Assembly: GCA_030523425.1 (NCBI GenBank)
Contig: JAUNIP010000017.1
Coordinates: 1-34,053 of the forward strand
Source: Coriobacteriia bacterium
GTDB taxonomy: Bacteria > Actinomycetota > Coriobacteriia > Coriobacteriales > Eggerthellaceae
Direction: 5' to 3'
Length of the DNA: 34,053 nt
Shown here piece after piece: positions 117-19,828 of the stretch. Every line of letters begins with the position of its first letter. Within the stretch, counting starts at the first letter, position 1. The translations under genes and the position numbers were made by a program. The notes below the pieces were generated by a model, which saw nothing but the letters and a program-made list of their open reading frames with translations, searched no databases and was not told the origin of the DNA.

Positions 117-908
117 TTATTGGTTGCTGTTTTGGCCTTTGGAGTAGATGGCGTTCAATAGGTGGGCCAGGGGGGCGGGCCAGAAACGTTTTAGCATGGC
201 CAGGTCTTCTTGGGTGCGGGTGTTGTCACGAATGAGGGCGGATGTTTCGGAATCTTGGTGGATGCGGTGGTGCATCAGGATGTTGTTGTCGTAGACGAAT
301 TCGCCGTCTAGGTGCGAAAAGCGCTCCCAGGCGTCCCAGTCCAGATTGCTTTTCATGTCTGAAATAAACGGCGGGTCAGGCAGGGTCTGCTTGTTCAGCG
401 TGACCGACGGGCAGCAGATGGCCGAACCCTTCGAAAGCAGCCCGCGCTTCTTGCGCGTGGTGGCGGCTATGCCGGTTTTCGCAATGGGTTTCAGCAACAT
501 GCGCTTCACGGACAAAAGCTGGTTGTCGTCAACTTCTTCACCGTCGCGCAGCTCGCCGTAGTTGGTGAAGAAGATGAGCGGGCGCGCGGCCCGGTTCATG
601 CCGGCAACGGCGCATTCGGCGTAGCGCGGCGCGTAGGTGTCGTCTTGGTGCGCAATGGTCACCAAAGGTGTGCTCGCGCAGATCACGGCGAAGTTCCAGT
701 CCGAGCCAATGCCAGGTTTCGCCGGATTCACGAACAGCGGGATGCCGGCTTCCTTCGCCACGTTTTCCACGTAGTCACTGGGCGTAGACGTGCACATGAT
801 GACGTTGGTCTTCAGCGTTTGCTGCTGCAGCGAACGCACACATTCGCCCAAGAAGGGACTTTCCTTGTAGGCGCAGATGGCGAAGGTGTGGTCGGCGGAC
901 GAAAACAT
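117..908 (-). CDS. Family 2-like glycosyltransferase (GT-A fold)
   Basis: A 263-residue protein with the GT2 pattern: an N-terminal strand and nucleotide-binding region (residues about 8-40, FAICAYKESPFLGECVRSL) and an acidic HQDD at 87-90 in the place of the DxD metal-binding motif. The later part is poorly recognisable and has no membrane segment, so it probably acts on the cytoplasmic face. It starts one base after the stop of the DUF2304 gene (TAG-c-ATG), which indicates translational coupling and a shared transcript with the two genes upstream. The acceptor and sugar cannot be read from the sequence. Membership of the GT2 superfamily is well supported; a role in a surface polysaccharide or glycolipid is inferred from the neighbours. 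Confidence 0.8.
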   Translation of the reverse strand: MFSSADHTFAICAYKESPFLGECVRSLQQQTLKTNVIMCTSTPSDYVENVAKEAGIPLFVNPAKPGIGSDWNFAVICASTPLVTIAHQDDTYAPRYAECAVAGMNRAARPLIFFTNYGELRDGEEVDDNQLLSVKRMLLKPIAKTGIAATTRKKRGLLSKGSAICCPSVTLNKQTLPDPPFISDMKSNLDWDAWERFSHLDGEFVYDNNILMHHRIHQDSETSALIRDNTRTQEDLAMLKRFWPAPLAHLLNAIYSKGQNSNQ

Positions 909-909
909 G

Positions 910-1269
910 CTAGTCGTCTTCGCCTGCGTCTTCGCGTGTGCTTGCGGCGTCCTTCAGCGCTATTTCCTGCGCCAGTTCGTTGATGCGGTGCTTCAGCAGC
1001 GAAATCTCGCAGGAATTCTGCAGAACCTTCCATAGCAGCAGCACGATGATGATCAAGAAGATGAAGTTGCTGGGGGACACAAACCCGAACAGCTCAGAGG
1101 TTACATAGGCCACCTGGGGAAACACGGCTATGACCACAAACACCAGGGCGAACACCACCCAGAAGATGGCGTCTTCCATGAGTATTTTGCGCTTGCGGAT
1201 GCGCTGCACCACCACGGCTAAGGCCACCACGGCGCCTAAGATCAGCAGGATTTGCAAAGGAAGGCTCAT
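910..1269 (-). CDS. DUF2304 family small membrane protein
   Basis: A 119-residue protein with three hydrophobic segments (about residues 3-22, 33-52 and 64-82) and a charged C-terminal helix (HRINELAQEI) ending in an acidic tail. This is the layout of DUF2304 proteins, which are typically encoded next to DPM1-like glycosyltransferases and are thought to help anchor them or assist at the membrane. The start at 1269 is preferred over a longer frame to 1290 because AGGAG sits 6 nt ahead of this ATG. The stop of the preceding GT2 gene lies 8 nt upstream and the next gene begins after a single base, so the three form one operon. The molecular activity of the family is unknown. Confidence 0.85.
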   Translation of the reverse strand: MSLPLQILLILGAVVALAVVVQRIRKRKILMEDAIFWVVFALVFVVIAVFPQVAYVTSELFGFVSPSNFIFLIIIVLLLWKVLQNSCEISLLKHRINELAQEIALKDAASTREDAGEDD

Positions 1270-1277
1270 GGCTACTC

Positions 1278-1958
1278 CTACCTGAACCACTGGAACAACA
1301 CGATGGACAAAATGGTGCGCGCCATGTACTTCACGATGGCGCTCAGCTTCAGATAGCTTTCGCCGCCTTGGCGGTCCTGCATGGTCACAGGAACTTCCAC
1401 GATTGCGTACTTCTGCCGCGCTGCCAACGCTATGGTGTCGGGTTCGGGGGCATAGTCGAAATCCTTCGCGAAGTTGCGTATCATGCGCGCGCTGTACAGG
1501 CGCATGCCCGACGTGGGATCGGTGATGCGCACGCCGGACGTCAGCTTGATGAGCCCCGAAATCATGGTGGAGCCCACGCCGCGCATGCCGCCCAACTTCC
1601 CGCCATTCACCAGGCGCGATGCAATGACCACATCCGCATGTTCGCGCTCCATGGCTTCCACCATGGGGGCGATGAAGGTGGGGATGTGCTGTCCGTCGGC
1701 GTCGAACTGGATAGCCGCGTCGTAGCCGTTGCGGTGCGCGTACTTCATGCCCGTGCGGAACGCCGAGGTGAGGCCGGTGTTGATGGGCAGGTTCACGCCG
1801 GCATACCCGTTTTTGGCAATGATGTCGCCCGTGGAGTCCTTCGAACCGTCGTTGACAACCAAATAGTCAAACTGCGGGCATTCCTTCACGAAGGAATCAA
1901 CGGTGCCCGCAAGGCATTCCTCTTCATTGTAAGCGGGAATAATGACTAATACTCTCAT
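1278..1958 (-). CDS. DPM1-like family 2 glycosyltransferase
   Basis: A 226-residue soluble GT2 of the dolichyl/polyprenyl-phosphate sugar synthase type. Visible motifs are VIIPAYNEEE (6-14), VVNDGSKDST (34-43), the catalytic metal-binding FDADGQH (85-91), and an ITDPTSGMRLYS segment typical of DPM1-like enzymes. Such enzymes move a sugar from a nucleotide donor to a polyprenyl phosphate at the cytoplasmic membrane. This protein has no C-terminal membrane helices of its own, and the DUF2304 membrane protein immediately downstream probably supplies the membrane link. ATG at 1958 is preferred over the in-frame TTG at 1964 because GAAAG lies at normal spacing from it. It is first in a three-gene minus-strand operon. 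Confidence 0.88.
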   Translation of the reverse strand: MRVLVIIPAYNEEECLAGTVDSFVKECPQFDYLVVNDGSKDSTGDIIAKNGYAGVNLPINTGLTSAFRTGMKYAHRNGYDAAIQFDADGQHIPTFIAPMVEAMEREHADVVIASRLVNGGKLGGMRGVGSTMISGLIKLTSGVRITDPTSGMRLYSARMIRNFAKDFDYAPEPDTIALAARQKYAIVEVPVTMQDRQGGESYLKLSAIVKYMARTILSIVLFQWFR

Positions 1959-2029
1959 CGACAATCTTTCGGCGAAAACGTGTCTTTTCTGTAGCTTCGG
2001 TTGCGCAGGGGCGCTTCTGCCAGTTCGCT

Positions 2030-2081: not shown

Positions 2082-4874
2082 GTGACTAATACATTACGTC
2101 ATTTGAACATAGCGAAGAAGGCTGCTGTCGCCTTCACTTCCTTGGTGCTGTGCGCATGCGTGGCGCCGTGCGCAGCCTGGGCGGCAGAAGCCGAAGTGGA
2201 CCCGCAAACCAGTGCGGCACCTGCCGGGCACTGGATGGTGACCGACACCATTACGGGCAGCATCGAACGTTTCTGGGTGGAGCCTTCGGGCGACATTGCG
2301 AAGAACCGCCTGATAACCGCCGACGAAGCAGGCTATTGGGCCTATGCCACGTCTACCGGCGCGGTGGTGCGCGGCGTGTATGCCGATCCTGAAACGGGCC
2401 TTGTGTACCTGGCGGACAACGACGGCAAGCTGTCTGACACCGGCTGGGTGGTCACGTCCAAGTACGGCCAGGGCCTGCAGCGCTACTTCGTGGATGCCCA
2501 AACGCACGCCTGCGTGCCGGGCTATTCCGCGGACGGCTATGACCACGCCACCACCCGCGAAGGCTTCGTGGTGCGCGGCGCGTACGCCGACCCGAAAACG
2601 GGGTATGTGTACCTGGCGGACAACGACGGCAAGCTGTCTGAGACCGGCTGGGTGGTCACGTCCAAGTACGGCCAGGGCCTGCAGCGCTACTTCGTGGATG
2701 CCCAAACGCACGCCTGCGTGCCGGGCTATTCCGCGGACGGCTATGACCACGCCACCACCCGCGAAGGCTTCGTGGTGCGCGGCGTGTATGCTGATCCCAC
2801 CACGGGCAACGTGTATTTGGCGGACAACGACGGCAAACTTTCGGGCACTGGATGGCTGGTCACGGATGCCTATGGCCAGGGCCTGCAGCGCTACTTCGTG
2901 GACGAAACCGCCCACGCCTGCGTGCCGGGCTATTCCACTGACGGCTATCCTCACTACACCACCGAAGCGGGCTATGTGTTGCGCGGCGAACTGACGGTGC
3001 GTGGCGTGCATCTGTTCGCTGACAACGACGGCCGACTGTCTATTTCCCGCTGGGTGTGCACCGACGCCGTCACGGGCAGCCTGGAGCGCTTCTGGGTGGA
3101 AGAATCCGGTGAAGTTGCCACCAACAGACTTATCACCCCTGACGAGGCGGGCTATTGGGCCTATGCCACGTCTACCGGCGCGGTGGTGCGCGGCGTGTAT
3201 GCCGATCCTGAAACGGGCCTTGTGTACCTGGCGGACAACGACGGCAAGCTGTCTGACACCGGCTGGGTGGTCACGTCCAAGTACGGCCAGGGCCTGCAGC
3301 GCTACTTCGTGGATGCAAAAACCCACGCCTGCATCCCCGGCTTTTCCACCGAAGGGTATGCCCATGTGACCAGCACCGAAGGCTATGTGGTGCGCGGGGC
3401 TGCCACGGTGAACGGCGAAAAGTACCTTGCGGACAACGATGGTAAGGTTCTCACCGACACCTGGGCTGTCACGGGCGCTTTCACCAACGGCGATCTGCAG
3501 CGTTACTGGGCAAGTTCCGAAGGCGCGTTCGCGGTGAACACGCTTCTTTCTGAATATGTGGCTGGCTACTGGGCCTATGCCACTTCCACCGGTGCGGTTG
3601 CTCGCGGCCGCTATACCGACCCCCAAACGGGCTATGTGTATTTGGCCAACAACGAAGGCGAGCTGGAAAACCCTGGCTGGCTGGTGACGAGCGCTTACGG
3701 CCAGGGCCTGCAGCGCTATTGCGTTGACGCCGACTACCATGCTTGCATTCCCGGCTTTTCGGAGTTCGATTACCTGCACTACACCACCAAGGACGGCTAT
3801 GTTGCCCGCGGTGACTACCTGACCGACATGGGCATCATCTTCGCTGACAACGACGGCCGCGTGGACGAAAGCGCCATGCAGGAAGGCTGGGCGGTCACCG
3901 ACGCCTTCGACGGCCGCGTGGAGCGTTATTACTTCCAGAGCTACGATGGCCACCTGTATGCCACCGTCGGGTTCTTCCAGGCGCAGCTGAACGACACCGA
4001 ATTGTGGTTCTACGGCATTCCGGAAGAAGGCTATGTGGTGCGCAGCAAGTACACCACCAACAACGGCGTGCTGGTGGCCAACGGCGACGGCGTGCTGATT
4101 GAGAATTCGTTCGGTGCGGGCTTTGCCGTGACCGATGCTTTCGATGGCGAATACCAGCGCTACTTCCTGCAGAATGTGGATGGCCACCTGTATGCGAAGA
4201 CCGGCTACTTCGAAGTGACCGAAGGCGGCGAAACCAAGGCCTACTTCGGTGACGAAGAAGAAGGGTATGTGGTGCGCAACGACACGCGCTATTACGATGG
4301 CGTGGTGTACAAGGCCGACAACGATGGCGTGCTGACCGCTATTGCCATCGACTACAACGCCAACGAAACGCGCGACCCCACGCTTTCCGAGGTCACGTGG
4401 AGCACGCATGCCAACTACCTGAATCAGATGCGCCTGTATGCCAGCATCTACGAGAGCGCCACGGATTGGTTCATCGCCGCAGACTGGACGCTGTGCCGCG
4501 TGACCATCTTGCAGCGCGTGAACGGCAACTGGGTGGTGTCGAAGACCTGGAACGGTAACTTCGGCTACAGTGGCGTCGGTAACGGCGACACGCACACCAT
4601 CAAGCATAAGCAGATCTGCAACTGGGACGACAGCTACTTCGGCTTGGGCTATAACGACTGGTCTTCGTGCTACATTGAGTCTTACAGCGACTACAACGTG
4701 GGCGGCCATTCCCGCTACATTCCAGGCTACGGCTACGAAGACTGCGCCTCCATCCATTCCACGGGGTACAACCATACCGGGTATGACAACCGGGGCTGCA
4801 TCGGCCTAACGTGGGACAATGCCAAGTTCGTGTATGACTACATCCCGGTTGGCACCAACATGTATCTGTTCTAA
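2082..4874 (+). CDS. Secreted wall-repeat protein with C-terminal L,D-transpeptidase-like domain
   Basis: A 930-residue protein starting at GTG behind AAGGGGGG. A signal peptide spans about 1-34 (AKK, hydrophobic core, cleavage near AAWA/AEAE). Residues about 48-770 hold roughly ten repeats of 68-78 residues, each with a GxVYLADNDGKL, GWVVT, LQRYFVD and GYVVRG pattern, resembling glucan/choline-binding-type wall repeats rich in aromatic residues and glycine. Residues about 785-930 look like an L,D-transpeptidase (YkuD) domain: a TDWFIAADWTLCRVTIL strand pair, His892, Cys906 in NRGCIGL, and a C-terminal AKFVYDYIPVGTNMYLF that fits the family's end. The usual SHGC(V/I)R is replaced by NRGCIG, so activity or substrate may differ. 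It probably acts outside the membrane on peptidoglycan. Three genes follow closely on the same strand (gap 21 nt). Confidence 0.85.
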   Translation: MTNTLRHLNIAKKAAVAFTSLVLCACVAPCAAWAAEAEVDPQTSAAPAGHWMVTDTITGSIERFWVEPSGDIAKNRLITADEAGYWAYATSTGAVVRGVYADPETGLVYLADNDGKLSDTGWVVTSKYGQGLQRYFVDAQTHACVPGYSADGYDHATTREGFVVRGAYADPKTGYVYLADNDGKLSETGWVVTSKYGQGLQRYFVDAQTHACVPGYSADGYDHATTREGFVVRGVYADPTTGNVYLADNDGKLSGTGWLVTDAYGQGLQRYFVDETAHACVPGYSTDGYPHYTTEAGYVLRGELTVRGVHLFADNDGRLSISRWVCTDAVTGSLERFWVEESGEVATNRLITPDEAGYWAYATSTGAVVRGVYADPETGLVYLADNDGKLSDTGWVVTSKYGQGLQRYFVDAKTHACIPGFSTEGYAHVTSTEGYVVRGAATVNGEKYLADNDGKVLTDTWAVTGAFTNGDLQRYWASSEGAFAVNTLLSEYVAGYWAYATSTGAVARGRYTDPQTGYVYLANNEGELENPGWLVTSAYGQGLQRYCVDADYHACIPGFSEFDYLHYTTKDGYVARGDYLTDMGIIFADNDGRVDESAMQEGWAVTDAFDGRVERYYFQSYDGHLYATVGFFQAQLNDTELWFYGIPEEGYVVRSKYTTNNGVLVANGDGVLIENSFGAGFAVTDAFDGEYQRYFLQNVDGHLYAKTGYFEVTEGGETKAYFGDEEEGYVVRNDTRYYDGVVYKADNDGVLTAIAIDYNANETRDPTLSEVTWSTHANYLNQMRLYASIYESATDWFIAADWTLCRVTILQRVNGNWVVSKTWNGNFGYSGVGNGDTHTIKHKQICNWDDSYFGLGYNDWSSCYIESYSDYNVGGHSRYIPGYGYEDCASIHSTGYNHTGYDNRGCIGLTWDNAKFVYDYIPVGTNMYLF
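2331..2497 (+). repeat. 167-bp perfect direct repeat, copy 1
   Basis: Identical over 167 bases to 3150-3316, offset by 819 bp (273 codons, in frame). It encodes the end of one wall-binding repeat and most of the next. Identity at silent positions points to recent duplication or gene conversion. Confidence 0.95.
2439..2580 (+). repeat. 142-bp perfect tandem repeat, copy 1
   Basis: Identical over 142 bases to 2643-2784, offset by 204 bp, i.e. exactly one 68-residue protein repeat. It overlaps the 167-bp repeat, so the stretch 2439-2497 exists in three identical copies in the gene. Confidence 0.95.
2643..2784 (+). repeat. 142-bp perfect tandem repeat, copy 2
   Basis: Second copy of the unit at 2439-2580, in frame. 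Unequal recombination between the copies would add or remove one 68-residue wall-binding repeat without a frameshift. Confidence 0.95.
3150..3316 (+). repeat. 167-bp perfect direct repeat, copy 2
   Basis: Second copy of 2331-2497. Identity breaks at both ends on single-base differences (2330 A vs 3149 G; 2498 C vs 3317 A). Recombination between the copies would delete 273 codons in frame. Confidence 0.95.
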
Positions 4875-4895: not shown

Positions 4896-6176
4896 ATGCC
4901 TGAACAGCACCGTTTGCTCATTCTGGGCTCGATGCATGAATTCGTCCAGCTGGTGAAGAAGGCGCGCGCCCGCGGATGGTATGTGGTGGTGTGCGATGGC
5001 TATGCGGATGGCCCCGCGAAGCCGTTCGCCAACGTTGCCTACAACATCAACGTGCGCGACACGGCCGCCATTGTTGAAGTGGCCAAGAAGGAACGCGTCG
5101 ATGGCATCATCGCGTCGTTTTCGGACGTGCTGGCCGAATGCTTGGCCACCATTGCCACCGAAGCGGGCTTCGAACCGTTCTTGGCGCCCGAAAAGCTGGC
5201 GTATCTGCGCGACAAAAGCCTGATGAAGCAGATGTTCGACGAAGCGGGCGTGCCTTATGCCAAAACGGTGCGCGTCACGCGCGAAAACGCCGCACAGCAG
5301 CTGGCTGGCCTAACCTTTCCCTGCGTGACCAAGCCGGCCAACGCATGGGGTTCCCATGGCGTGAACTTGGTGCGCACTCCCCAGGAAGTGCTTGACTGCT
5401 TCGGCGACGTGGCCCGCTTTGCCGAAGAAGACTACATCTTGGTGGAAGAATACAACGACGGCTATGAGATCAACATGATGGCGTGGGTGTGCAACGGCAA
5501 GCCCGTGGTGCTAGACCTGGCCGACCGCGAAAAGTCCCAGGAAGACCCCAATGCGTTGCCTTACGTCACGCGCATCACCTATCCCAGCGTGTTCACCGGC
5601 ACCATCATCGAAGAAGCCACGGACATCCTGCAGCGCGTGGTTGACTTTTTGGGCTACGAATACGGTCCTTTGTGCATGCAGTTTTTCTACCAGCCGGGGC
5701 GCGGCATCCAGGTATGCGAATGCTGCGGGCGCATCTTCGGCTACGAGCACGAACTGTTAGAGCTGGCAAGCGAAGGCGGCTTGTGCATTGAAGACCTGCT
5801 GCTAGACAGCGCCTACGACAAGGCTTCGGTGGCGCCGCGCCTGGCTGCGCACAACCCGCGCTTCACCACGTGGGCTTCCGCGCTGAACTTCCACGCACGC
5901 GACGGCGTGATTGCCCGCTTGGAGGGCATCCCCGAAGAGGGCGGCATCGTAAAGGATTCGCTGACGTATCTGCACGTGGGCAGCGTGGTGTCCCATGAAG
6001 TGGGCGACATGCCCTACTTGGCGCGCCTGCTGATTGCCACGCCGGACCGCGAAGAACTTGACGCCGCAACCGACGCCTTGTTTGGCGCCGTTATTGCCGA
6101 AGATGCTGCAGGAAATTCGCTGGTGTGCGAAAATACCAGGGTGACCTACGACGGCGTCTTGAGTGCGGAGCTGTAA
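4896..6176 (+). CDS. ATP-grasp family ligase (carbamoyl-phosphate-synthase-like fold)
   Basis: A 426-residue protein with the ATP-grasp order: an N-terminal Rossmann-like preATP domain (LLILGSMHEFVQLVKKA), an ATP-binding lysine region (CVTKPANAWGSHGVNLV, about 148-164), ILVEEYNDGYEINMMAWV, and the metal-ligand strand near 275-279. That last motif reads E-C-C-G-R instead of the common E-x-N-x-R, so the usual Asn is Cys277. Enzymes of this fold join a carboxylate to an amine or thiol through an acyl phosphate. GGGGGAG lies 6 nt before the ATG. Its TAA is immediately followed by the ATG of the WecE-type aminotransferase, so the two are coupled and may act on one product, perhaps ligating an amino acid to an amino sugar. 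The substrate is unknown. Confidence 0.85.
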   Translation: MPEQHRLLILGSMHEFVQLVKKARARGWYVVVCDGYADGPAKPFANVAYNINVRDTAAIVEVAKKERVDGIIASFSDVLAECLATIATEAGFEPFLAPEKLAYLRDKSLMKQMFDEAGVPYAKTVRVTRENAAQQLAGLTFPCVTKPANAWGSHGVNLVRTPQEVLDCFGDVARFAEEDYILVEEYNDGYEINMMAWVCNGKPVVLDLADREKSQEDPNALPYVTRITYPSVFTGTIIEEATDILQRVVDFLGYEYGPLCMQFFYQPGRGIQVCECCGRIFGYEHELLELASEGGLCIEDLLLDSAYDKASVAPRLAAHNPRFTTWASALNFHARDGVIARLEGIPEEGGIVKDSLTYLHVGSVVSHEVGDMPYLARLLIATPDREELDAATDALFGAVIAEDAAGNSLVCENTRVTYDGVLSAEL

Positions 6177-7307
6177 ATGATTGACTTTAACGTTCCACCC
6201 TTTTTGGGAACCGAACTTGACTATGTGCGCCAGGCGGCACAGCACAACCACAAGATTTGCGGCGACGGCCCGTTTTCCGCCAAGTGCCACGAATGGATGG
6301 AGCAGCGCTTCCACACCCCGAAGGCGCTTTTGACCACCAGCGGCACCGCGGCCTTGGAAATGGCGGCCATACTGTGCGACCTGCAGCCCGGCGATGAAGT
6401 GATCTTGCCCAGCTACACGTTTTCTTCCACGGCCACGGCTTTCCAGATGGTAGGCGCCACGTTGGTGTTCGTGGACATTCGCCCGGACACCATGAACATA
6501 GACGAAACGCTGATAGAGCCCGCCATCACGGAAAAGACGCGCGTGATAGTGGCCATGCATTATGCCGGCGTGGCATGCGACATGGACGCTATTATGGACA
6601 TTGCGGCGCGTCACAACCTGTTGGTGGTGGAAGACGCGGCCCAGGGCGTCATGAGCACGTACAAGGGCAAGGCCTTGGGAACCATAGGCACCTTCGGCTG
6701 CTTTTCCTTCCACGAAACCAAGAACTATTCCATGGGCGAAGGCGGCGCCATTCTTATCAACGATTCCGCCTATATTGAGCGCGCGGAGATCATTCGCGAA
6801 AAGGGCACGAACCGCCAGCGTTTCTTCCGCGGCCAAGTGGACAAATACACCTGGGTTGACCGCGGCGGGTCGTATTTGCAGTCCGACCTGAACGCGGCAT
6901 ATCTGTGGGCCCAGCTGCAGGCGGCCGACGCCATCAACGAAAACCGCTTGGCTTCGTGGCAATTCTACTGGGACCATTTCGCTCCCTTGGCGCAACAGGG
7001 CAAATGCGTTCTTCCCACCATTCCGTCCGATTGCGAGCATAACGCGCACATGTTCTACCTGAAGTGCGAAAGCTTGGAACAGCGCAGCAAGCTGATAGCG
7101 TTTCTGAAGGAATGCGGCGTCATGGCGGTGTTCCATTATGTACCGCTGCATTCGTCCCCCGCAGGCCAGATGTTCGGGCGCTTCAACGGCGAAGACCGCT
7201 ACACCACTTCCGAAGGGGATCGATTGGTGCGTCTTCCCATGTACTACGGCATGACCCACGAAGACCTGCGCACCATCGTAGACGCTGTGTTGGCGTTTTT
7301 CGACTAA
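6177..7307 (+). CDS. wecE: WecE-type dTDP-4-amino-4,6-dideoxygalactose transaminase (DegT/DnrJ/EryC1 family)
   Basis: A 376-residue PLP enzyme of normal family length. It matches enterobacterial WecE motif by motif: GTELDYV near the N-terminus, RPDTMNIDETLIE (102-114), VVEDAAQGVMSTYKG (150-164), FSFHETKNY with the PLP lysine at 182, EIIREKGTNR and FFRGQVDKYTW. WecE converts dTDP-4-keto-6-deoxyglucose to dTDP-Fuc4N using glutamate, for enterobacterial common antigen in Gram-negatives. The start abuts the stop of the ATP-grasp gene (TAAATG). No dTDP-glucose synthesis (rmlAB) or Fuc4NAc transferase genes are in the window, so the keto-sugar must come from elsewhere. Family assignment is firm; exact substrate is by analogy. 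Confidence 0.9.
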   Translation: MIDFNVPPFLGTELDYVRQAAQHNHKICGDGPFSAKCHEWMEQRFHTPKALLTTSGTAALEMAAILCDLQPGDEVILPSYTFSSTATAFQMVGATLVFVDIRPDTMNIDETLIEPAITEKTRVIVAMHYAGVACDMDAIMDIAARHNLLVVEDAAQGVMSTYKGKALGTIGTFGCFSFHETKNYSMGEGGAILINDSAYIERAEIIREKGTNRQRFFRGQVDKYTWVDRGGSYLQSDLNAAYLWAQLQAADAINENRLASWQFYWDHFAPLAQQGKCVLPTIPSDCEHNAHMFYLKCESLEQRSKLIAFLKECGVMAVFHYVPLHSSPAGQMFGRFNGEDRYTTSEGDRLVRLPMYYGMTHEDLRTIVDAVLAFFD

Positions 7308-7325: not shown

Positions 7326-7865
7326 ATGGGCGAATCCATGGGAGTGCGGTTGCGGGCGCTGCGCAAGCAGCGCGGCCTGACGCTGCAGGATCTTTCCCGG
7401 CAAACGCAGCTTTCCATCGCTCACCTAAGCAACATCGAACGGGACAGCGCCAGTCCCACCATCGCAAACCTGCACTTGGTGTGCGCGGCGCTTGACATCA
7501 CGCTGAACGACCTGCTTGCAGCCGATAAGGATGCCGCTGAAAATGGTTCCTATGTGGTGCCCCAGCAGGCCCGCCCCGCCATTTTCGACCAGGAAGGGCT
7601 TTCGTATTCTTCGCTGACCTTGGGGGATAGCTCGCTGAAGGCCACGGCCATGAGCCTGTGTTCCCACGAATGGGTGCATTTTTCCGCCCACGACCACGAC
7701 GAACTGGGCATCATGAGCAGCGGAAGCATGGAAATGAAAGTGGGCGATGCCACCCATGTGCTGCATCCGGGCGACAGCATCTTCATCAGGCAGGGCACCA
7801 TGCACAGTGCGCGGCTGTGCGGCGAAGGCGAAAGCGTGAGCTACTGGATTAAATCGGGCGCGTAG
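7326..7865 (+). CDS. XRE-family regulator with C-terminal cupin domain
   Basis: A 179-residue protein with an N-terminal helix-turn-helix (about residues 6-62: LRALRKQRGLTLQDLSRQT, then IAHLSNIERDSASPTI) and a C-terminal cupin barrel (about 95-175, including HDHDELGIMSSGSMEM and HPGDSIFIRQGTMHSA). This is the common XRE-cupin type, in which the barrel binds a small effector that changes DNA binding. Members often control amino-acid, amine or sugar metabolism genes nearby. It begins 18 nt after the wecE stop, behind GGGGTG, and is the last gene of that unit. The next operon starts from its own promoter about 210 bases further on, a plausible target. The effector is unknown. Confidence 0.88.
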   Translation: MGESMGVRLRALRKQRGLTLQDLSRQTQLSIAHLSNIERDSASPTIANLHLVCAALDITLNDLLAADKDAAENGSYVVPQQARPAIFDQEGLSYSSLTLGDSSLKATAMSLCSHEWVHFSAHDHDELGIMSSGSMEMKVGDATHVLHPGDSIFIRQGTMHSARLCGEGESVSYWIKSGA

Positions 7866-7950
7866 GCACCGGGTTCACAAAATCTCCACAGGGGACATGT
7901 GGCGCGCCCTGCGGAAAAGTTTTACCACAGAAAAATTTGCTGCGCGGTTT

Positions 7951-7977
7951 GCGCCCGGCGGGCTTGCGTAATTTTTT
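7951..7977 (+). terminator. Possible weak terminator after the regulator gene
   Basis: A small GCCC-GGC-GGGC hairpin lies in the gap 7866-8120 and is followed, after TTGCGTAA, by a T6 tract. The stem is only four pairs and the T tract is displaced, so this is tentative. The gap also contains CCACA-7nt-TGTGG (about 7889-7907) and then the promoter of the next unit. I see no gene in it. Confidence 0.3.
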
Positions 7978-8075
7978 GCTGGTGTAATTTCGGGCTTAGG
8001 ATTACTGTCGGGCGCTTGGCAATCGTTTCTGGGCGGGGCGGGTTGCTGGTGGGCCTGCGGGCGGGCCTTCTGCGA

Positions 8076-8084
8076 TGATAAAAT
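8076..8084 (+). promoter_or_regulatory. Extended -10 promoter of the ATP-grasp/MmgE/opine-dehydrogenase operon
   Basis: TGATAAAAT combines the extended TGn element (8076-8078) with TAAAAT (8079-8084), 36 bases before the ATG at 8121. No good -35 lies 17 bp upstream (the sequence there is G-rich), which suits an extended -10 or activator-dependent promoter. Confidence 0.5.
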
Positions 8085-8120
8085 GTGTGTAATCGAGAGT
8101 TTTATCTGGGAAGGGCCATT

Positions 8121-9095
8121 ATGCACACTGCGCTAGTTACGTCTTTGGGGTCTACCGCCGGCGATATTGTCATCAAGAAGCTGAAGGAAAACGGGTTTTG
8201 CGTGGTGGGCGCTTCCATCTATCCCGAAGAGTGGCTGGCAGATGCCCTGATGGTAGATGTGTTTTACGAATCACCCCGGGCGGACCATCCAGATGAGTTC
8301 CTGCCGTTTCTGTATGACGTGTGCGAAAAGGAAGCGGTCGATTTCGTTGTTCCGCTGATTGACCCCGAAGTTGACCTGCTGAACGTGAACCGCACATGGT
8401 TTGAAGAGCACGGCGTCACGCTGGGTATTTCGCCTAAGCCGGCCTTGGACATCATCCGCGACAAGAAGAAGCTGGCCGATTTCATCCGCGACAACTGCCC
8501 GGACACGGTTTCCATTCCCACGGAGTACCTGCGTGATTTGCCGGAAATGCCCAATTGGGGCTTTCCCTTGGTGTGCAAGCCCTGCAACGGCCGCTCCAGC
8601 CAGGGCCTGACCTATGTGAACAGCCAAGAAGAATGGAACGCGCTGGTGGCGGTGGCCGACATGGACACCTACATTGTGGAGCCCTTCGTGAAGGGGCCCA
8701 TCTGCATGGTGGAAATTGTGCGCAACCCCGCGCAGGGCGTGGTGGTCACCGCCACACGCGAGGAACTTATGTCTACACCGCACTGCTTGGCGCTTACCGT
8801 GCGTACCTATCAAGACGAAGCCTTGGAGCAGGCTAGCGCCGTGCTGGCCGAAAAGCTGGGCATCGTGGGCAACGTGAACTTCGAATACCTGCGCGACGAC
8901 GACGGGGTGTATCACTTCGTGGAGTGCAACCCGCGCTTTTCCGCGGGTGCCGAATTCGCCGTGATGGCAGGCTTTGACGTGGTCACGGGCCATATTCGCA
9001 GCTTTGCAGGCGAAGACGTGGACGCGTATGAGTTTGATCATCCGCGCATTATCGCGCGCAAGTACGAAGAGTTCCTGACGAAGGAAGAAAAGTAA
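8121..9095 (+). CDS. ATP-grasp family ligase (CarB-like)
   Basis: A 324-residue protein. The N-terminal preATP domain begins HTALVTSLGSTAGDIVIKKL; the ATP-binding lysine region is PLVCKPCNGRSSQGLTYV; next comes TYIVEPFVKGPICMVEIV; the metal motif is a complete E268-C-N270-P-R272 in HFVECNPRFSAG. This is a full active set for an ATP-dependent carboxylate-amine ligase. ATG 8121 is preferred over an upstream in-frame GTG at 8085 because GGGAAGG lies correctly before it and the promoter -10 overlaps the GTG. It is first in a unit with MmgE/PrpD and opine-dehydrogenase-like genes. Substrates are unknown; likely a small amino or carboxylic acid made or used by those two enzymes. Confidence 0.85.
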   Translation: MHTALVTSLGSTAGDIVIKKLKENGFCVVGASIYPEEWLADALMVDVFYESPRADHPDEFLPFLYDVCEKEAVDFVVPLIDPEVDLLNVNRTWFEEHGVTLGISPKPALDIIRDKKKLADFIRDNCPDTVSIPTEYLRDLPEMPNWGFPLVCKPCNGRSSQGLTYVNSQEEWNALVAVADMDTYIVEPFVKGPICMVEIVRNPAQGVVVTATREELMSTPHCLALTVRTYQDEALEQASAVLAEKLGIVGNVNFEYLRDDDGVYHFVECNPRFSAGAEFAVMAGFDVVTGHIRSFAGEDVDAYEFDHPRIIARKYEEFLTKEEK

Positions 9096-9172
9096 CAGCA
9101 CGCGTTGCTTTTAGGATGTGCGCCTGTGGGCGAACCGTGCGGCGCTGAGCGATCCGCAAGAAAGGGGAGGGC

Positions 9173-10519
9173 TTGAAGTTTACAACCGATTATAGGCTGG
9201 AGAACTATATTACAGGCCTTACCTGGGATAATCTGCCTGAAACCGTGCAAGCGCGCGCTCGCGGCTGCGCGCTTGACTTAGCCGGTGCCCTTATTCTGGG
9301 CAGCAAAGGCAAGCAGTTCCAAGCAGGGCTTTCGCTGGCGCGCAGCGTATTTGCGCCGGGGGATGTTCCGGTGTTCGGCAGCATGCAGCGCGCTTCGCTG
9401 CCGGGCGCAGCTTCGGCGTTGGGCCACGCGGCCAATTCGTTTGACATCGACGACGGGCACAACCTGGTGAAAGGCCATCCGGGCGCTTCCTTCGCGGCGG
9501 GCCTTTTGGCGGCGGCTTGCCAGCAGAATTGCACCTACCGGCAGCTGCTGACCACCTTGGTGGTAGGCTACGACGTGGCGGTGCGTGCAGGCAAGGCTAT
9601 CCAAAGCTCGTATGGCTTCCTGCACAGCACGGGCACCTACGGCGCGGTGGCAACTGCCGCTGTTGCAGGACGCCTGATGGGCCTTACGCCCGCTCAGCTG
9701 AACACGGCGCTGGCCATCGCGGATTTCCATGCTCCGCTGACGCCGGTCATGCGCGCGGTGGAATATCCGTCCATGTCCAAAGACGGCGTGCCCTTCGGCG
9801 CGCTGGTGGGCTGCATGGCGGTGCTGGAAACGCTGGCGGGTTCCACGGGCAAAACCTACACCCTGGAAAGCGAAGATCAGGCGTATCTGCTGGATGACCT
9901 GGGCGAAACCTTCGAAATCATGAACCTGTACTTCAAGCCCTACACCTGCTGCCGCTGGGCACATCAGCCCATCCGTGCCATTATCAACCTGCGCAAAGAA
10001 CAAGGCCTGTGCGCCGAACAGGTGGAACACGTCACCGTGCACACCTTCGATTCCGCCGCGCGCCTTTCCAAGGTTGTTCCTGCCGACACCGACGAAGCGC
10101 AGTACAACATAGCCTGGCCGGTAGCCTGTGCGCTGGTGTATGGCGAAGTGGGCTATAACCAGGTGTGCGACGAAGCGGTGGGGGACCCTGCGGTCATAAG
10201 CATGATGGATCGCCTGGATTTCACGGTAGACCCCGAACTAGAGGCGCAGTTCCCCGAAAAGCGCCTGGCCTGGGTGGAAGTGCTTACCACCGATGGCCGC
10301 ACCCTTGCAACCCCGGTGTACGCCGCCGAAGGCGAAGCCACAGACGGCATAGACAACGAATGGATTCGCGCGAAGTTTCTGCGCATCACCGCTCCCGTGT
10401 TTCCTGAACAGCACGCCGTTCGCGTTGCGGACGCGCTGCTGGAAGGCAGCCTGGACGCGCATGTGCGGGACTTTGTTGAGTCGATAAACGAAGTATTGGC
10501 CCCGGAAGAAGACCAGTAG
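9173..10519 (+). CDS. MmgE/PrpD family protein (2-methylcitrate dehydratase-like)
   Basis: A 448-residue protein of normal family length, started by TTG 2 nt after a very strong AAAGGGGAGG. Family hallmarks are SFDIDDGHNLVKGHPGASF (about 94-112), LHSTGTYGAVATAAVAGRL, a KPYTCCRWAHQPI segment and a C-terminal lid domain. The family includes 2-methylcitrate dehydratase, iminodisuccinate epimerase and cis-aconitate decarboxylase, all acting on di- or tricarboxylates, usually by elimination or decarboxylation. No prpB/prpC methylcitrate genes are nearby, so propionate metabolism is not indicated. It lies between an ATP-grasp ligase and an opine-dehydrogenase-like gene on the same strand with short gaps, suggesting that it prepares or modifies a carboxylic acid for them. 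Confidence 0.87.
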   Translation: MKFTTDYRLENYITGLTWDNLPETVQARARGCALDLAGALILGSKGKQFQAGLSLARSVFAPGDVPVFGSMQRASLPGAASALGHAANSFDIDDGHNLVKGHPGASFAAGLLAAACQQNCTYRQLLTTLVVGYDVAVRAGKAIQSSYGFLHSTGTYGAVATAAVAGRLMGLTPAQLNTALAIADFHAPLTPVMRAVEYPSMSKDGVPFGALVGCMAVLETLAGSTGKTYTLESEDQAYLLDDLGETFEIMNLYFKPYTCCRWAHQPIRAIINLRKEQGLCAEQVEHVTVHTFDSAARLSKVVPADTDEAQYNIAWPVACALVYGEVGYNQVCDEAVGDPAVISMMDRLDFTVDPELEAQFPEKRLAWVEVLTTDGRTLATPVYAAEGEATDGIDNEWIRAKFLRITAPVFPEQHAVRVADALLEGSLDAHVRDFVESINEVLAPEEDQ

Positions 10520-10553
10520 GAAACGCAGTAGAAACCAAAGGAAGGAATTGAAC

Positions 10554-11768
10554 ATGAAGGATATGTCTTACTTGGCAGACAAGCCCATTGCCGTGCTAGG
10601 CGCCGGTGCCGTCGGCATGACGTGTGCCGCCGACTGCAAGCTGGCGGGCAAGGAAGTACGCCTGTATTCCCGCAGTCCGCGCAGCATCGAAGGCCTTGAC
10701 CGCACGGGCATCTTGCTTGACGGCATCCAGCGCAACCTGTACGGCTTCGAGCGTTCGGGCCGTGCGCATCTGGATATGTACACCAACGACATGGCCGAAG
10801 CCGTGAAGGGCGCCGGCATCATCATCATCGGCATCACCGCGCTGGCACAGGAAGACTACCTGCAGAAGCTGGTTCCGCTGCTGGAAGACGGCCAGGTCAT
10901 CCACACCTTCACCGACAACTACGCCAGCCTGCTCATCCGCAAGTACATGCGCGAAATGGGTGTGGAGAAAGACGTCATCGTGGGCGGCTGGGCTTCCGCT
11001 CCTTACGGCACCCGCGTGGAAAAGGTGCAGGGCTTCTGGATGCCGCACGTGGGAGCGAAGTACCGCGCCATCACGCTGCGCGGCGCCTGCCTGCCTATGA
11101 GCGACATCGACGAATTCATGGAGTCAACCAAGTACATGCCCTGTATGGACGCCATCACCGAAGGCGACGGCCCCGTGGCTGGCGACACCATGCTTGACAT
11201 TGGTTTCTCCAACGTGAACCCGGTCATCCACGTGCCCGCTTCCATTTTGGGCGTTTCCAGCATGGAAAACTGGAGCGACGTGTATGGCAACGACCCCGAC
11301 AGCTACTCCATGTACTCCCACGGCCTGTGCCCGTCCATCTGCGAAGTGCAGTACCAGTTCTTCAACGAAGAGCGAGCCATTGCCGACGCCATCGGTATCG
11401 ACATGCCCAAGTATGACTACGAGATGTTCTTCAGCCGCCGCAGCATTCTGACCCAGGAATACATGGGCCTAGACGAAAACGGCAAGGACAACGTGGTGTT
11501 CCCGCTTGACAAACCCTGCGACGAAGGCAACACCGGTCCGAACAACATAGATCACCGCTACATCACCGAAGACATCCCGGTAGGTTGCAAGATCTACCAC
11601 GACCTAGGCGTGAAGTTCGGCGTGCCCACGCCCATCATCGACTCCATGATAGTGCTTGGCGGCGCCATGCACAAAACCAACTGGTTCGAAACCAGCAAAT
11701 ACAACCTAGACTACTTCGGCATAGGCCAGATGACCAAGGAAGAACTGTTGAAGTACCTGCGCGGCTAG
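10554..11768 (+). CDS. NAD(P)-dependent octopine/opine dehydrogenase family protein
   Basis: A 404-residue protein with an N-terminal Rossmann domain (PIAVLGAGAVG, 11-21) and a C-terminal octopine-dehydrogenase helical domain. The likely catalytic His226 lies in NPVIHVPASIL, and the late family signature RYITEDIPVGCKIY is followed by FGVPTPIIDSMI. Opine dehydrogenases reductively condense the amino group of an amino acid with an alpha-keto acid, or run in reverse. The ATG at 10554 is preferred over TTG at 10548 because AGGAAGG is 8 nt before the ATG but only 2 nt from the TTG. It is the last gene of the unit and ends 4 nt before a strong terminator. Substrates are not readable; family assignment is good. 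Confidence 0.85.
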   Translation: MKDMSYLADKPIAVLGAGAVGMTCAADCKLAGKEVRLYSRSPRSIEGLDRTGILLDGIQRNLYGFERSGRAHLDMYTNDMAEAVKGAGIIIIGITALAQEDYLQKLVPLLEDGQVIHTFTDNYASLLIRKYMREMGVEKDVIVGGWASAPYGTRVEKVQGFWMPHVGAKYRAITLRGACLPMSDIDEFMESTKYMPCMDAITEGDGPVAGDTMLDIGFSNVNPVIHVPASILGVSSMENWSDVYGNDPDSYSMYSHGLCPSICEVQYQFFNEERAIADAIGIDMPKYDYEMFFSRRSILTQEYMGLDENGKDNVVFPLDKPCDEGNTGPNNIDHRYITEDIPVGCKIYHDLGVKFGVPTPIIDSMIVLGGAMHKTNWFETSKYNLDYFGIGQMTKEELLKYLRG

Positions 11769-11819: not shown

Positions 11820-12977
11820 CTATCGTACAATCCCGTTGCGGGCTTTTTTGGCTTCGGGGGATAGGGCATCTATTTGGGCTAGGCGTTGGCGGTAGTAGGG
11901 GCCGGCTACGGGGTCGGCCATTAAGGGCTTGTATACCTGCAGGTACTTGATGCCGCTGTGGGAATTAATCTCCATCAGCTTGGGGCCTTTGGTGGTGATG
12001 CCTATGTCGAAGCCCAAATATTGGCAGGCGCTGAACTTCGCGCATACCTTCGCAATCATATCCTTCACTTCGGGCCAGCAGGCTATGTCGCCTTCGGCCA
12101 GGGCACCCGTGGCGGGGTGGTTGGGGGAGTCGACGGTTTTGGCGGCATAGACTATCTTGCCGTTGCCGAAATGCCCGGTCTCCATGTCGATGGACGTGTT
12201 GTAGGAAAAGATGTCGGCCGTGGTGGGTGGTTCGTAGTTGGGCTTGTAGCCTTCGTCGTCGCCGGTGGAAGCGAAGCGCACGTAACTGGCCACGGGGAAG
12301 GGGTTCGCGCCGTCTTCGTTTGCCACCAGCATGCGGATGGTGTGGATGCGCGAATTGATGGCGGCCATCTGTTCGTCGGGATAGATGAACTCGGTGAACA
12401 CGTAGTTCGTCAGTTTCGCCAGTTCTTCGGCCAGCTGTTCGGCGGAAACTTCTTGGCCGTCAAAGCGGTAGGCGCCGTCAACATATTCCATCATGTGGAA
12501 GCCGCTGGCTTCGGTGCCGTTGCAGGGCTTGCAGGCGAAGGCGCCTTCGGCTTGCAGCTTTTCCAAGAAGGCTTCCGTTGTGGCGCGGCCGTCGGAAAAC
12601 TGCAGGGGGATCAGGCGCGTGGCGGCGTTGTAGTAATAGTATTCCGGCAGGTATTGCTGCAGGTCGGAATCCATGAACATGGCATTCAAGGTCAGCTTGT
12701 CGTTGATCCAGATGCGCTGCCAGTCGTTTAGGGGCCACAGCTTCCAGTAGTCGTAGTCGGTCAGGTAGTCGGCCTTGTTTTCGTCGGTCAGGCCGTAAGC
12801 GCAGGCCGATTCGGCCAGAAAGCCGTTTGCGTGGGCCCATGCAAGGTAGTCGGGGTCGAACAGGCCGCTTTCGGCTTCGCGCTTTTGCAGCATAAGGTAC
12901 TCTTCGGCGAAACGCTTGGTGAAGCCGTCTTCTAGCAGGTCATTCAGGGTGGGATTGCTCAGCACAGCATGCTCCAT
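11820..12977 (-). CDS. Sugar-transfer-associated ATP-grasp protein (ATPgrasp_ST type)
   Basis: A 385-residue protein. The nucleotide-binding region reads FACKPCNGTEASGFHMMEY; then INSRIHTIRMLV, matching the NTiR motif of this group; and the metal-binding end is YLGFDIGITTKGPKLMEINS with the E-x-N pair, followed by a Q-x-x-K-P-L stretch. ATPgrasp_ST proteins are usually encoded among glycosyltransferases and are predicted to attach amino acids or other amines/carboxylates to glycans. It ends the minus-strand glycan cluster, though a hairpin at 13029-13063 separates it from the GT2 upstream. No clear ribosome site precedes the ATG at 12977, so the exact start is less certain. Substrate unknown. 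Confidence 0.82.
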   Translation of the reverse strand: MEHAVLSNPTLNDLLEDGFTKRFAEEYLMLQKREAESGLFDPDYLAWAHANGFLAESACAYGLTDENKADYLTDYDYWKLWPLNDWQRIWINDKLTLNAMFMDSDLQQYLPEYYYYNAATRLIPLQFSDGRATTEAFLEKLQAEGAFACKPCNGTEASGFHMMEYVDGAYRFDGQEVSAEQLAEELAKLTNYVFTEFIYPDEQMAAINSRIHTIRMLVANEDGANPFPVASYVRFASTGDDEGYKPNYEPPTTADIFSYNTSIDMETGHFGNGKIVYAAKTVDSPNHPATGALAEGDIACWPEVKDMIAKVCAKFSACQYLGFDIGITTKGPKLMEINSHSGIKYLQVYKPLMADPVAGPYYRQRLAQIDALSPEAKKARNGIVR

Positions 12978-13028
12978 TCAAATCGGTGGCGCCGAAAACG
13001 GGCCAAATAAACATACCGTTCCCATAAT

Positions 13029-13063
13029 AACGGACTGCAGCGCCCTGCGGCGTGCAGTCCGTT
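13029..13063 (-). terminator. Stem-loop between GT2 and ATP-grasp genes
   Basis: AACGGACTGCA (13029-13039) pairs perfectly with TGCAGTCCGTT (13053-13063), and an inner CGCC/GGCG stem fills the loop. On the minus strand it follows the GT2 stop at 13086, but only TTATTAT follows the stem. On the plus strand it is followed by CGATTTTT. It is a likely partial terminator or processing hairpin. Confidence 0.55.
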
Positions 13064-13085
13064 CGATTTTTGCGGTTTGTGCGGC

Positions 13086-14360
13086 TTACTTGTCCTTCTT
13101 CAGGGAACGCAAGGGCTGGGTTAGCTTCCAGCTGGTGGAAGAGTGTATCTGCTCTAGTTCTCCTTCCAGCTGCGCTATGCGTTCCAAGCAGGCTTCGAAA
13201 TGCTTGGACAGGCCGGCTATCAGCTCTTGCGCGTCGGCCTCGGCCTTGCGCAGGCGGTTGCATTCGGCCCGTTCGTCTTCCAGCAGCGCACTGGCGGTGG
13301 TGAAGGCTTCCAGCAAATCGTCGTAGCGCCCTTCCAAGTCGGGGTCGCTCAGCAGAAAATGCGACGTCAGTTCGTAGTAGTCTAGCGCGGTGAAGTGATA
13401 TTCCTGCGCAAGCACTTCGCATGATTCCGGGTTGTCTAGCAGCTGTTTTAAGGCATCCACGCCGGCCCAGCATACGAAGTCGTCGTTTTTCTTGGGCCCC
13501 ACCAGCAAAAACGCCTTTTCAATGGCAAGCTGCACGGCGGTGTGCGCATCCGGATTTTTGAAGTGGCTGCCGAAGGCGGCAATGAACAGGTCGTCCGGCA
13601 TGTTGTCGAAGTAGTGCTCGCGGATGAGCGAGTATTCGTTCCTGAAGCGCGAATGGCTTGCGTGGCTGTCGTTGCTGTTGTTGGTCACGCCGCCGGATTC
13701 TTCCATGTAGCGGCGCATGTTCACTAAGGGCTCGTGCAGCACATGCATGTCGTAGCGATGCGCGATGCGCACCCAGTAATCAAGGTCGTGCGATTGCGCG
13801 TAGGCCAAGTCGAAATTGCCCACGGTGCGCATGACTTCGGTGCGCATGAGCACCGAAGGGTGGGACAGGTGGTTGCACTCGAAGAATAAAAGCTCCAGCC
13901 ACTCTTCCTTCTTCTGCATGTCAACATCGAAAATGGCCAAGTAGTCGGGGTTTTCAGCGCTTATATCTGCGCCGTTTTCGTCTATGAGCCCGATGGTGGA
14001 AAACACCACGTCACAACCTGTTTCTTGCATATAGGCCATCTGCTTTTCCAGCTTTTCGGGCAGCCACACGTCGTCGCTGTCTATGCGCGCCAGGAATTCG
14101 CCTTTCACCAGGGAAAAGCCCACGTTGGTGGCCGCGGAGATGTGGCCGTTTTCGGGCAAGCGGTGCACCACTATGCGGGGGTCTTCGTAAGATTCTATAA
14201 TCTGGCATGATGCGTCGGTGGAGCCGTCGTCCACAATGATGAACTCGAAGTTCCCATACGTTTGGTTCAGCACGCTTTCGATGGAGTGTCCAATAACGTC
14301 TTCGTGGTTGTAGTTAACCATCAAGACGCTTACCAGGGGCGTACTAGGACCAGTAGTCAT
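13086..14360 (-). CDS. Family 2 glycosyltransferase with C-terminal coiled coil
   Basis: A 424-residue protein. The GT2 domain fills residues 8 to about 230 with VSVLMVNYNHE, VDDGSTD (43-49) and the metal-binding DSDD (94-97). The C-terminal part (about 345-410) is rich in Glu, Leu, Arg and Ala and looks like a coiled coil. It ends in SSTSWKLTQPLRSLKK, a tail often seen on bacterial surface-polysaccharide glycosyltransferases. There are no membrane helices. GAGAAGG lies 9 nt before the ATG at 14360. It sits between a second GT2 and an ATPgrasp_ST gene on the same strand, consistent with building a cell-surface glycan. Donor and acceptor are unknown. Confidence 0.87.
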   Translation of the reverse strand: MTTGPSTPLVSVLMVNYNHEDVIGHSIESVLNQTYGNFEFIIVDDGSTDASCQIIESYEDPRIVVHRLPENGHISAATNVGFSLVKGEFLARIDSDDVWLPEKLEKQMAYMQETGCDVVFSTIGLIDENGADISAENPDYLAIFDVDMQKKEEWLELLFFECNHLSHPSVLMRTEVMRTVGNFDLAYAQSHDLDYWVRIAHRYDMHVLHEPLVNMRRYMEESGGVTNNSNDSHASHSRFRNEYSLIREHYFDNMPDDLFIAAFGSHFKNPDAHTAVQLAIEKAFLLVGPKKNDDFVCWAGVDALKQLLDNPESCEVLAQEYHFTALDYYELTSHFLLSDPDLEGRYDDLLEAFTTASALLEDERAECNRLRKAEADAQELIAGLSKHFEACLERIAQLEGELEQIHSSTSWKLTQPLRSLKKDK

Positions 14361-14487
14361 TATTTGCTGCCTTCTCTGGAACTAATCCCACGCAAGGAAC
14401 ACCTTGCATCATTCACTTTGCTAAGCCAAACGCACACTTCAAATCATACCCTTCGCCGGAACAATTACCATGCAGAATTTCACGCAA

Positions 14488-15759: not shown

Positions 15760-15793
15760 GTGCACCCTTACTTCTTGCTTGCAAAACAGAAAA

Positions 15794-15799
15794 ATTATA
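15794..15799 (-). promoter_or_regulatory. Consensus -10 upstream of the GT2 gene
   Basis: The minus strand reads GGCGTATAATTT, with TATAAT at 15799-15794, 35 bases before the ATG at 15759 and just past the DUF6541 stop. No convincing -35 is found. It suggests the downstream GT2 genes can be transcribed independently of the DUF6541 gene. Confidence 0.45.
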
Positions 15800-15823
15800 C
15801 GCCATATGCGCCTGTGCCGCCCA

Positions 15824-17968: not shown

Positions 17969-18017
17969 GCTGCATGTACCTTTCTGATGGTTGGGCCTGC
18001 GCAGGTTCGGCCGTTAT

Positions 18018-18032
18018 TGCTACATAGTAGCA
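18018..18032. promoter_or_regulatory. 15-bp dyad between DUF4422 and DUF6541 genes
   Basis: TGCTAC-ATA-GTAGCA is a perfect inverted repeat in the 117-base gap, 50 bases before the DUF6541 start. It is either an operator or a small RNA hairpin. Two other short hairpins (CCTTCG-5nt-CGAAGG at 18062-18078, GCAAG-CGTT-CTTGC at about 18038-18051) fall in the same gap. None has a T tract. Confidence 0.35.
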
Positions 18033-18085
18033 CGGCGGCAAGCGTTCTTGCGCTTAGGCGGCCTTCGGCACGCGAAGGGGCGGGA

Positions 18086-19546: not shown

Positions 19547-19757
19547 GTGCTGACTATCCAATCCGTTCGACGGGTGACGCTTGCGGCAAGCCTCTGCCTT
19601 TCTTCGCGAACGATAATGGTAGCGCAGGTTGGGCTGTTGGGGGTAGCAAAATGGAAGAATACGCAGGCTTGCTGCCACTTGGAGCAGGTAATGTGTGCGT
19701 AGTATCCCGTTCGCATGGGATTTCCCCCTTCTGGGCGCGGTGCGGGCGCGCACACGG

Positions 19758-19763
19758 TAAAAT
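19758..19763 (+). promoter_or_regulatory. Putative -10 for the glycolipid glycosyltransferase gene
   Basis: CGGTAAAATGC gives TAAAAT 65 bases before the GTG at 19829, in the 282-base divergent gap 19547-19828. No clear -35 is present. The gap has no convincing gene; short open frames in it lack ribosome sites. Confidence 0.35.
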
Positions 19764-19828
19764 GCACGCAAAGTGTTGTTGTGCCCCCATGTTTTGCTTG
19801 CATCGGCAAGCGGGAAGGCCCCCCAAAC

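Follow-up and report, generated by a model that had tools for sequence, protein, structure and literature searches.

Near one end of a 34,053-nucleotide stretch of a Coriobacteriia genome assigned to the Eggerthellaceae (contig JAUNIP010000017.1; 'the window' below means this whole stretch), we examined a gene for a putatively exported repeat protein whose C-terminal domain is predicted to adopt the YkuD fold of L,D-transpeptidases. The domain belongs to a well-supported coriobacterial clade that retains the catalytic histidine and cysteine of this fold, has almost entirely lost an arginine invariant in the ordinary enzymes of the class, and is encoded in surface-polysaccharide loci, in most core members beside an ordinary transpeptidase. 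We tentatively predict, with a little less than even confidence, that the window enzyme is a cysteine hydrolase held on the wall and that a transpeptidase is its partner. Hydrolysis is what we infer from the sequence; the fold, the clade, its conservation, the locus and the partner gene are computed results.

The preliminary description of this DNA had noted a divergent active site, NRGCIG, in which Asn-Arg stands in place of Ser-His and Gly in place of Arg while His892 and Cys906 are kept, and the codons bear out each of these assignments at residues 903–908 (Table 1). It had also placed the motif about ten residues after the histidine, which holds (ten residues lie between His892 and Asn903), and had called this short against a usual 14–17, a range that is not universal, the solved YkuD enzymes 4lzh and 5bmq having 12 residues between His and Ser. 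By profile alone the domain is marginal: it scores 18.3 bits against Pfam YkuD (PF03734), below the cut-off of 23.4, and four YkuD genes of the genome do pass, the window gene not being one of them. Some clade members exceed the cut-off (for example L073 with 27.2 and L084 with 61.5 bits), and 14 of the 16 rows of our alignment A2 match the family at E<=1. The structure predicted for residues 771–930 from a 16-row alignment (predicted local distance difference test, pLDDT, 87.6; predicted template-modelling score, pTM, 0.85) was overlaid on solved enzymes, as the preliminary description had proposed, and proved YkuD-like, with Z scores of 14–15 to solved L,D-transpeptidases: 15.1 for the best match, 4xxt, 14.4 for LdtMt1, and 14.3 for Bacillus subtilis YkuD (1y7m; root-mean-square deviation 2.0 over 108 residues). 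Foldseek ranked 4xxt and the carboxypeptidase Bd1075 highest, the clade profile matched solved YkuD-type chains (4xxt at E 6e-12), and the profile alignment places His892 on the His of 5bmq and Cys906 on its Cys. On the predicted model, then, the C-terminal domain of the window protein is of the YkuD fold; it ends the protein, with no NTF2 domain after it.

We compared the 20 distinct domains of the window clade with 45 distinct ordinary coriobacterial YkuD domains, the two sets being split by profile score (above 100 bits with A2 counted as variant) and domains identical over a 110-residue stretch being merged before counting, so that the copy in genome G718 has no row of its own. The catalytic His and Cys are present in all 20 clade domains and all 45 ordinary ones. 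By contrast, the Arg two positions after the cysteine (+2), found in 45/45 ordinary domains, occurs in 1/20 of the clade, and the Ser or Thr at −3, again 45/45 in ordinary domains, in only 4/20. At +2 the clade instead carries Gly (10), Cys (5), Val (2), Thr (1), Ala (1) or Arg (1); in its core sub-clade, Gly occupies this place in 10/10 members and Asn the −3 place in 8/10, giving an NxGCxG pattern. The window domain likewise departs from the [S/T]HGC signature with Arg or Asn at +2 that marks L,D-transpeptidases, and has both catalytic residues. The replacement of His by Arg at −2 was at first a candidate for the decisive change and was dropped, since that His (1/20 in the clade) is itself variable in ordinary coriobacterial domains (27/45). 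As read from these alignments, the telling changes are Arg to Gly at +2 and Ser to Asn at −3. Two further YkuD proteins of this genome (L001:1501-1914 on contig C86 and L002:1501-1881 on contig C67) read SGGCVN and SHGCVN, so that Arg, Asn and Gly at +2 all occur within one genome.

The loops around the active site differ as well. The His-to-Cys distance is 8–22 residues in the clade (14 in the window protein) against 21–32 in ordinary domains, ranges that touch at their ends, and the distance from a conserved Asp to the His is 79–107 residues against 59–93, ranges that overlap. The pre-His stretch carries residues conserved specifically in the clade, such as N-D-W and G-Y-E-D-C in most core members. 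A paired disulfide was considered for the clade's extra cysteines and rejected, because alignments A1 and A2 show no clear pairwise loss of these cysteines.

In a tree built with the motif columns removed, a branch with support 99/97 separates the 20 clade domains from the rest, and the ten domains of the core sub-clade (Atopobiaceae plus this genome) group with support 100/94, which upholds the earlier suggestion of a distinct subfamily. A distant relative in genome G114, L033, was excluded from both the tree and the 65-row motif table; L033:1-2013 reads SHGGTCIS in place of the Gly-Cys motif and is possibly a decayed copy. The profile search that had been proposed for further variant proteins, run over 396 genomes of the class, found 19 places at E<=2e-36, followed by a gap to 9e-22; the window gene is not a one-off, and three of these places (G084, G110 and contig C36 of G317) were not rows of the search profile. 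Clade members occur in 17/140 genomes of the Atopobiaceae-type family (f2) and in 2/138 of the window's own family, namely this genome and G718, whose assembly is 71% complete and whose copy (L091) scores nearly identically to the 850-residue form of G110 and G317 and may reflect contamination or recent transfer. Among 296 genomes sampled from the phylum, none other than this one scored below 7e-19. Scanning named genomes with a single-protein query gave no relative, while a five-row alignment gave seven, including Thermophilibacter provencensis, T. mediterraneus and Olsenella phocaeensis, as well as RUG12341, titled an uncultured Coriobacteriaceae.

This genome itself encodes two clade members, the window gene and a 586-residue paralogue on contig C9 that is 47% identical over the domain; the two are sisters (100/93). 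The paralogue (L073:9783-11540) has a lipobox-like start (LSGC), the motif QEGCLGL and none of the window locus genes nearby. Because the rest of the clade is nearly all from Atopobiaceae, we considered whether this genome might be contaminated: the assembly is 99.36% complete and 0.62% contaminated, and the locus shares its contig with nusA, infB and truB. Transfer between families is the more likely explanation. An origin as a phage lysin or plasmid cargo was likewise rejected, because viral contigs held no relative and tblastn gave no match in phages or plasmids, within the sensitivity of these searches. Elsewhere in the clade the domain is joined to other modules, a PcsB-like coiled coil in L068 and ricin-type lectin domains in L084.

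Clade genes sit in a surface-polysaccharide locus. At least one of five marker genes lies in 17/19 variant loci as against 1/20 control loci around ordinary YkuD genes, under neighbourhood thresholds of our own choosing set in the counting script (Fisher test, 6e-8, which, like every Fisher value here, overstates independence, since the rows for loci and pairing are related, L081 and L082 being almost copies of each other). The two variant loci without marker genes are that of the C9 paralogue and G317:C49. In the window, the gene probably heads a transcript with the ATP-grasp and DegT aminotransferase genes that follow it.

In six core-clade loci (L067, L068, L070, L071, L072 and L075), the gene directly following the variant encodes an ordinary S/T-x-G-C-I/V-R enzyme whose repeats resemble those of the window protein. 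With L087, from family f3, and a gene that this genome carries on contig C59, the six partners make up a clade of eight (96/90). A profile made from seven partners and searched over the 140 f2 genomes scored E<=1e-67 in exactly seven, all of them carriers of the core variant, with the next best at 2e-27; the partner is thus present in 7/8 core carriers and 0/132 other Atopobiaceae genomes (Fisher test, 4e-11). Within the window's family it is found at E<=1e-67 in this genome only (1/138), three more genomes scoring about 1e-24; this genome's partner is itself a row of the profile and lies on a different contig from the window gene. Two points about the pairing are independent of how the profile was built: every other Atopobiaceae genome stays at or above 2e-27, and G084, which lies outside the partner profile, scored 6e-75. 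The core carrier that lacks the partner, G269, encodes close by a protein in which the same repeats are joined to a CotH kinase domain (L066:10829-14326).

What might an enzyme of this kind do? The hydrolase reading is favoured because the small residue at +2, Gly in every core member, matches what is reported of YkuD-fold hydrolases. In the available excerpts of the studies cited here and below, DpaA-like amidases, Csd6 and Pgp2 lack the +2 Arg typical of L,D-transpeptidases (PMC8263019); the place is a buried Ala in DpaA (PMC10653827), Val in Bd1075, Ala in Csd6 and Pgp2, and Arg in most transpeptidases (PMC8938487). All four are shown hydrolases with a small residue there (PMC8263019, PMC10653827, PMC8938487). 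Structurally, the hydrolases are described as having a single-entrance pocket and the transpeptidases a two-entrance groove in which that Arg is exposed (PMC10653827), and Csd6 has a remodelled set of loops, the shape of its site being named as the reason that it does not transpeptidate (PMC4599014). Like the clade, the DpaA/YafK amidases of Gram-negative bacteria, which act as the reverse of a transpeptidase (PMC8263019, PMC10653827), combine the YkuD fold with the absence of a +2 Arg and a short His-to-Cys loop: the translation of Escherichia coli K-12 DpaA reads HGDCVSIGCYA, a His-to-Cys distance of 8 that recurs in 4/20 clade members. DpaA differs from the window enzyme in keeping Ser at −3, in having Ala at +2 and in carrying no wall-binding repeats. 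To our knowledge, Coriobacteria would not be expected to have Lpp, unlike the hosts of DpaA.

As a hydrolase, the exported protein would be held on wall polysaccharide by its ten repeats of the choline- or glucan-binding kind. Its YkuD-fold domain, judging by fold prediction, conservation and the tree, would be an acyl-transfer enzyme of the Cys-His type from a separate coriobacterial clade, in which loss of the groove Arg, remodelling of the pre-His stretch and shortening of the post-His loop may have favoured hydrolysis over the joining of two stems. The predicted target is the amide at the L-centre of the third residue of the peptidoglycan stem, so that the fourth residue would be trimmed or something attached there released. 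The variant would then act, by trimming or detaching, as counterpart to the ordinary SHGC-I/V-R transpeptidase whose gene adjoins its own in most relatives of the core clade, and both may serve the surface polymer made by the surrounding locus. A more specific proposal, which we regard as unlikely, is a writer–eraser pair in single-membrane bacteria, the core NxGCxG enzyme releasing the surface polymer or wall protein that the adjacent SHGC-I/V-R enzyme attaches; such an eraser would extend the YkuD type beyond the Lpp system of Gram-negative bacteria, and the pair would have passed between Atopobiaceae and the window's family as one unit.

Several observations weigh against hydrolysis. Gly at +2 appears not to be reported in any characterised hydrolase, as far as the excerpts of the cited work extend. 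A carboxypeptidase resembling Csd6 is not indicated by the sequence, because the position of the D-Ala-pocket Trp is Ser in the window protein: with Csd6, Pgp2 and Bd1075 it shares the fold and a small +2 residue (Ala, Ala and Val in those enzymes, in the excerpts available), and it has neither their type of Trp, which in Csd6 and Pgp2 stands two residues before the catalytic His and is here Ser890, nor their following NTF2 domain. LdtMt2-type enzymes and 5bmq have Asn at +2, yet are transpeptidases by name or known activity. The clade member of G386 retains the full motif (SHGCTRL), and the Arg has accordingly not been lost in every line of the clade. The pairing count, finally, is partly so by construction, because the partner was defined, and its profile built, from neighbours of variant genes. 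The G386 protein (L084:10035-12803), which combines the full SHGCTR motif with ricin-type lectin repeats, is a possible intermediate.

An altered specificity or reaction, one of the explanations raised in the preliminary description, remains the leading kind of explanation. The main rival to hydrolysis within it, possible and to our minds on the doubtful side, is a transpeptidase with an altered donor or acceptor, which would attach a protein, amino sugar or unusual stem peptide from the locus to the wall and for which the usual stem-binding Ser and Arg would be dispensable. The retained catalytic pair suits this reading, as do a locus rich in ATP-grasp, DegT and glycosyltransferase genes and a pre-His stretch whose length, overlapping that of ordinary domains in range, could accommodate another substrate; LdtGo2-type enzymes, whose open site makes 1-3 cross-links, offer a precedent in the excerpt available (PMC10727944). 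It sits less well with the small +2 residue of the reported hydrolases and with the ordinary transpeptidase that is already the neighbour. That the YkuD domain is instead an inactive wall-binding relic, serving as a structural or regulatory module, seems very unlikely: three of the four conserved residues beside the Cys are lost, the window domain falls below the Pfam cut-off, and L033, without Gly-Cys altogether, indicates that decay does occur, but branch lengths within the 20 clade domains sum to about 14.4 substitutions per column, over which exactly the catalytic His and Cys remain invariant while neighbouring residues vary, not what neutral drift would leave, and the uniform Gly at +2 in the core is unlike a decaying site. 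Equally improbable is neutral variation in an ordinary L,D-transpeptidase tolerant of motif changes, for although the −2 His varies in ordinary domains too, the +2 Arg and −3 Ser/Thr are invariant there and are lost jointly with the loop changes in one supported clade.

Compared with known L,D-transpeptidases of this fold (B. subtilis YkuD, LdtMt2, 4xxt and the coriobacterial [ST]xGC[VI]R enzymes), the window enzyme shares the predicted fold, the catalytic His and Cys, the Gly before the Cys and the C-terminal helix-strand ending, and differs in lacking the −3 Ser/Thr and the +2 Arg/Asn and in its longer pre-His stretch and shorter post-His loop.

The N-terminal part of the protein bears on where the enzyme would act. 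Export is predicted from the N terminus. A model of two repeats (pLDDT 94.5) has the choline-/glucan-binding beta-hairpin repeat fold, with Foldseek matches at E down to 2e-6 and a TMq of about 0.6 to pneumococcal choline-binding proteins; it resembles the choline-binding Pce, CbpF, CbpJ and LytA, the glucan-binding parts of sucrases and the carbohydrate-binding repeats of large clostridial toxins. This predicted fold is common to LytA, CbpF and the glucansucrases, from which the window repeats differ in their length of about 68 residues and in being weakly recognised by TIGR04035 (E 0.0075, 16.5 bits against a curated cut-off of 147.7); a Pfam search found no repeat family above cut-off in the protein. 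From the model, the repeats likely hold the protein on cell-wall polysaccharide. The likeness to toxin repeats is that of a shared carbohydrate-binding fold and has no bearing on toxicity, and nothing toxin-like was found in the window protein. Antisense to almost the entire gene runs an 893-residue open frame with an ATG start (2094-4775, minus strand), probably a by-product of repeated GC-rich codons.

Table 1. Features of the window gene, its protein and the surrounding locus (window coordinates).
Feature	Position	Strand	Remarks
Gene of the repeat protein, with the variant YkuD domain at its C terminus	2082..4874	+	930 residues, GTG start; signal-peptide-like N terminus (export predicted)
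Ten repeats of 66-78 residues each, residues 49 to ~746	2226..4319	+	predicted carbohydrate-binding beta-hairpin solenoid, choline-binding/glucan-binding kind
Variant YkuD catalytic domain, residues 771-930	4392..4871	+	profile alignment, predicted structure, fold matches
His892, catalytic His equivalent	4755..4757	+	His column 20/20 clade, 45/45 ordinary
NRGCIG motif, residues 903-908, replacing S-H-G-C-V/I-R	4788..4805	+	motif comparison, codon positions
Cys906, catalytic nucleophile equivalent	4797..4799	+	Cys column 20/20 clade, 45/45 ordinary
Family-2 glycosyltransferase, divergent neighbour	1278..1964	-	homologue at least 50% identical in 14/19 variant loci
DUF2304 protein, divergent flank of window gene	910..1290	-	
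Family-2 glycosyltransferase	117..908	-	
ATP-grasp protein, 21 bases downstream of window gene	4896..6176	+	likely same transcript
DegT/DnrJ/EryC1 aminotransferase	6177..7307	+	
Helix-turn-helix (HTH)-cupin, ATP-grasp, MmgE/PrpD and octopine-dehydrogenase-like genes	7326..11768	+	last three have same-order counterparts in L067
Sugar-transfer ATP-grasp, two family-2 glycosyltransferases, DUF6541, DUF4422 (surface-polysaccharide locus)	11820..19915	-	

Domains with the YkuD fold are annotated as transpeptidases by default. Divergent enzymes of this fold with new reactions are already known, among them DpaA, Csd6, ElsL and LdtGo2, in the portions of that literature available. Little work seems to have been done on the wall chemistry of Coriobacteria, which are common gut bacteria, and literature listings for Coriobacteria, Actinobacteria and Olsenella or Atopobium showed none on the YkuD or transpeptidase enzymes of the group. 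The clade described here offers a natural, defined group of enzymes that have kept the catalytic pair and lost the groove Arg, with a matched ordinary enzyme in the same loci; such a set makes the determinant of whether YkuD enzymes join or cut directly testable.

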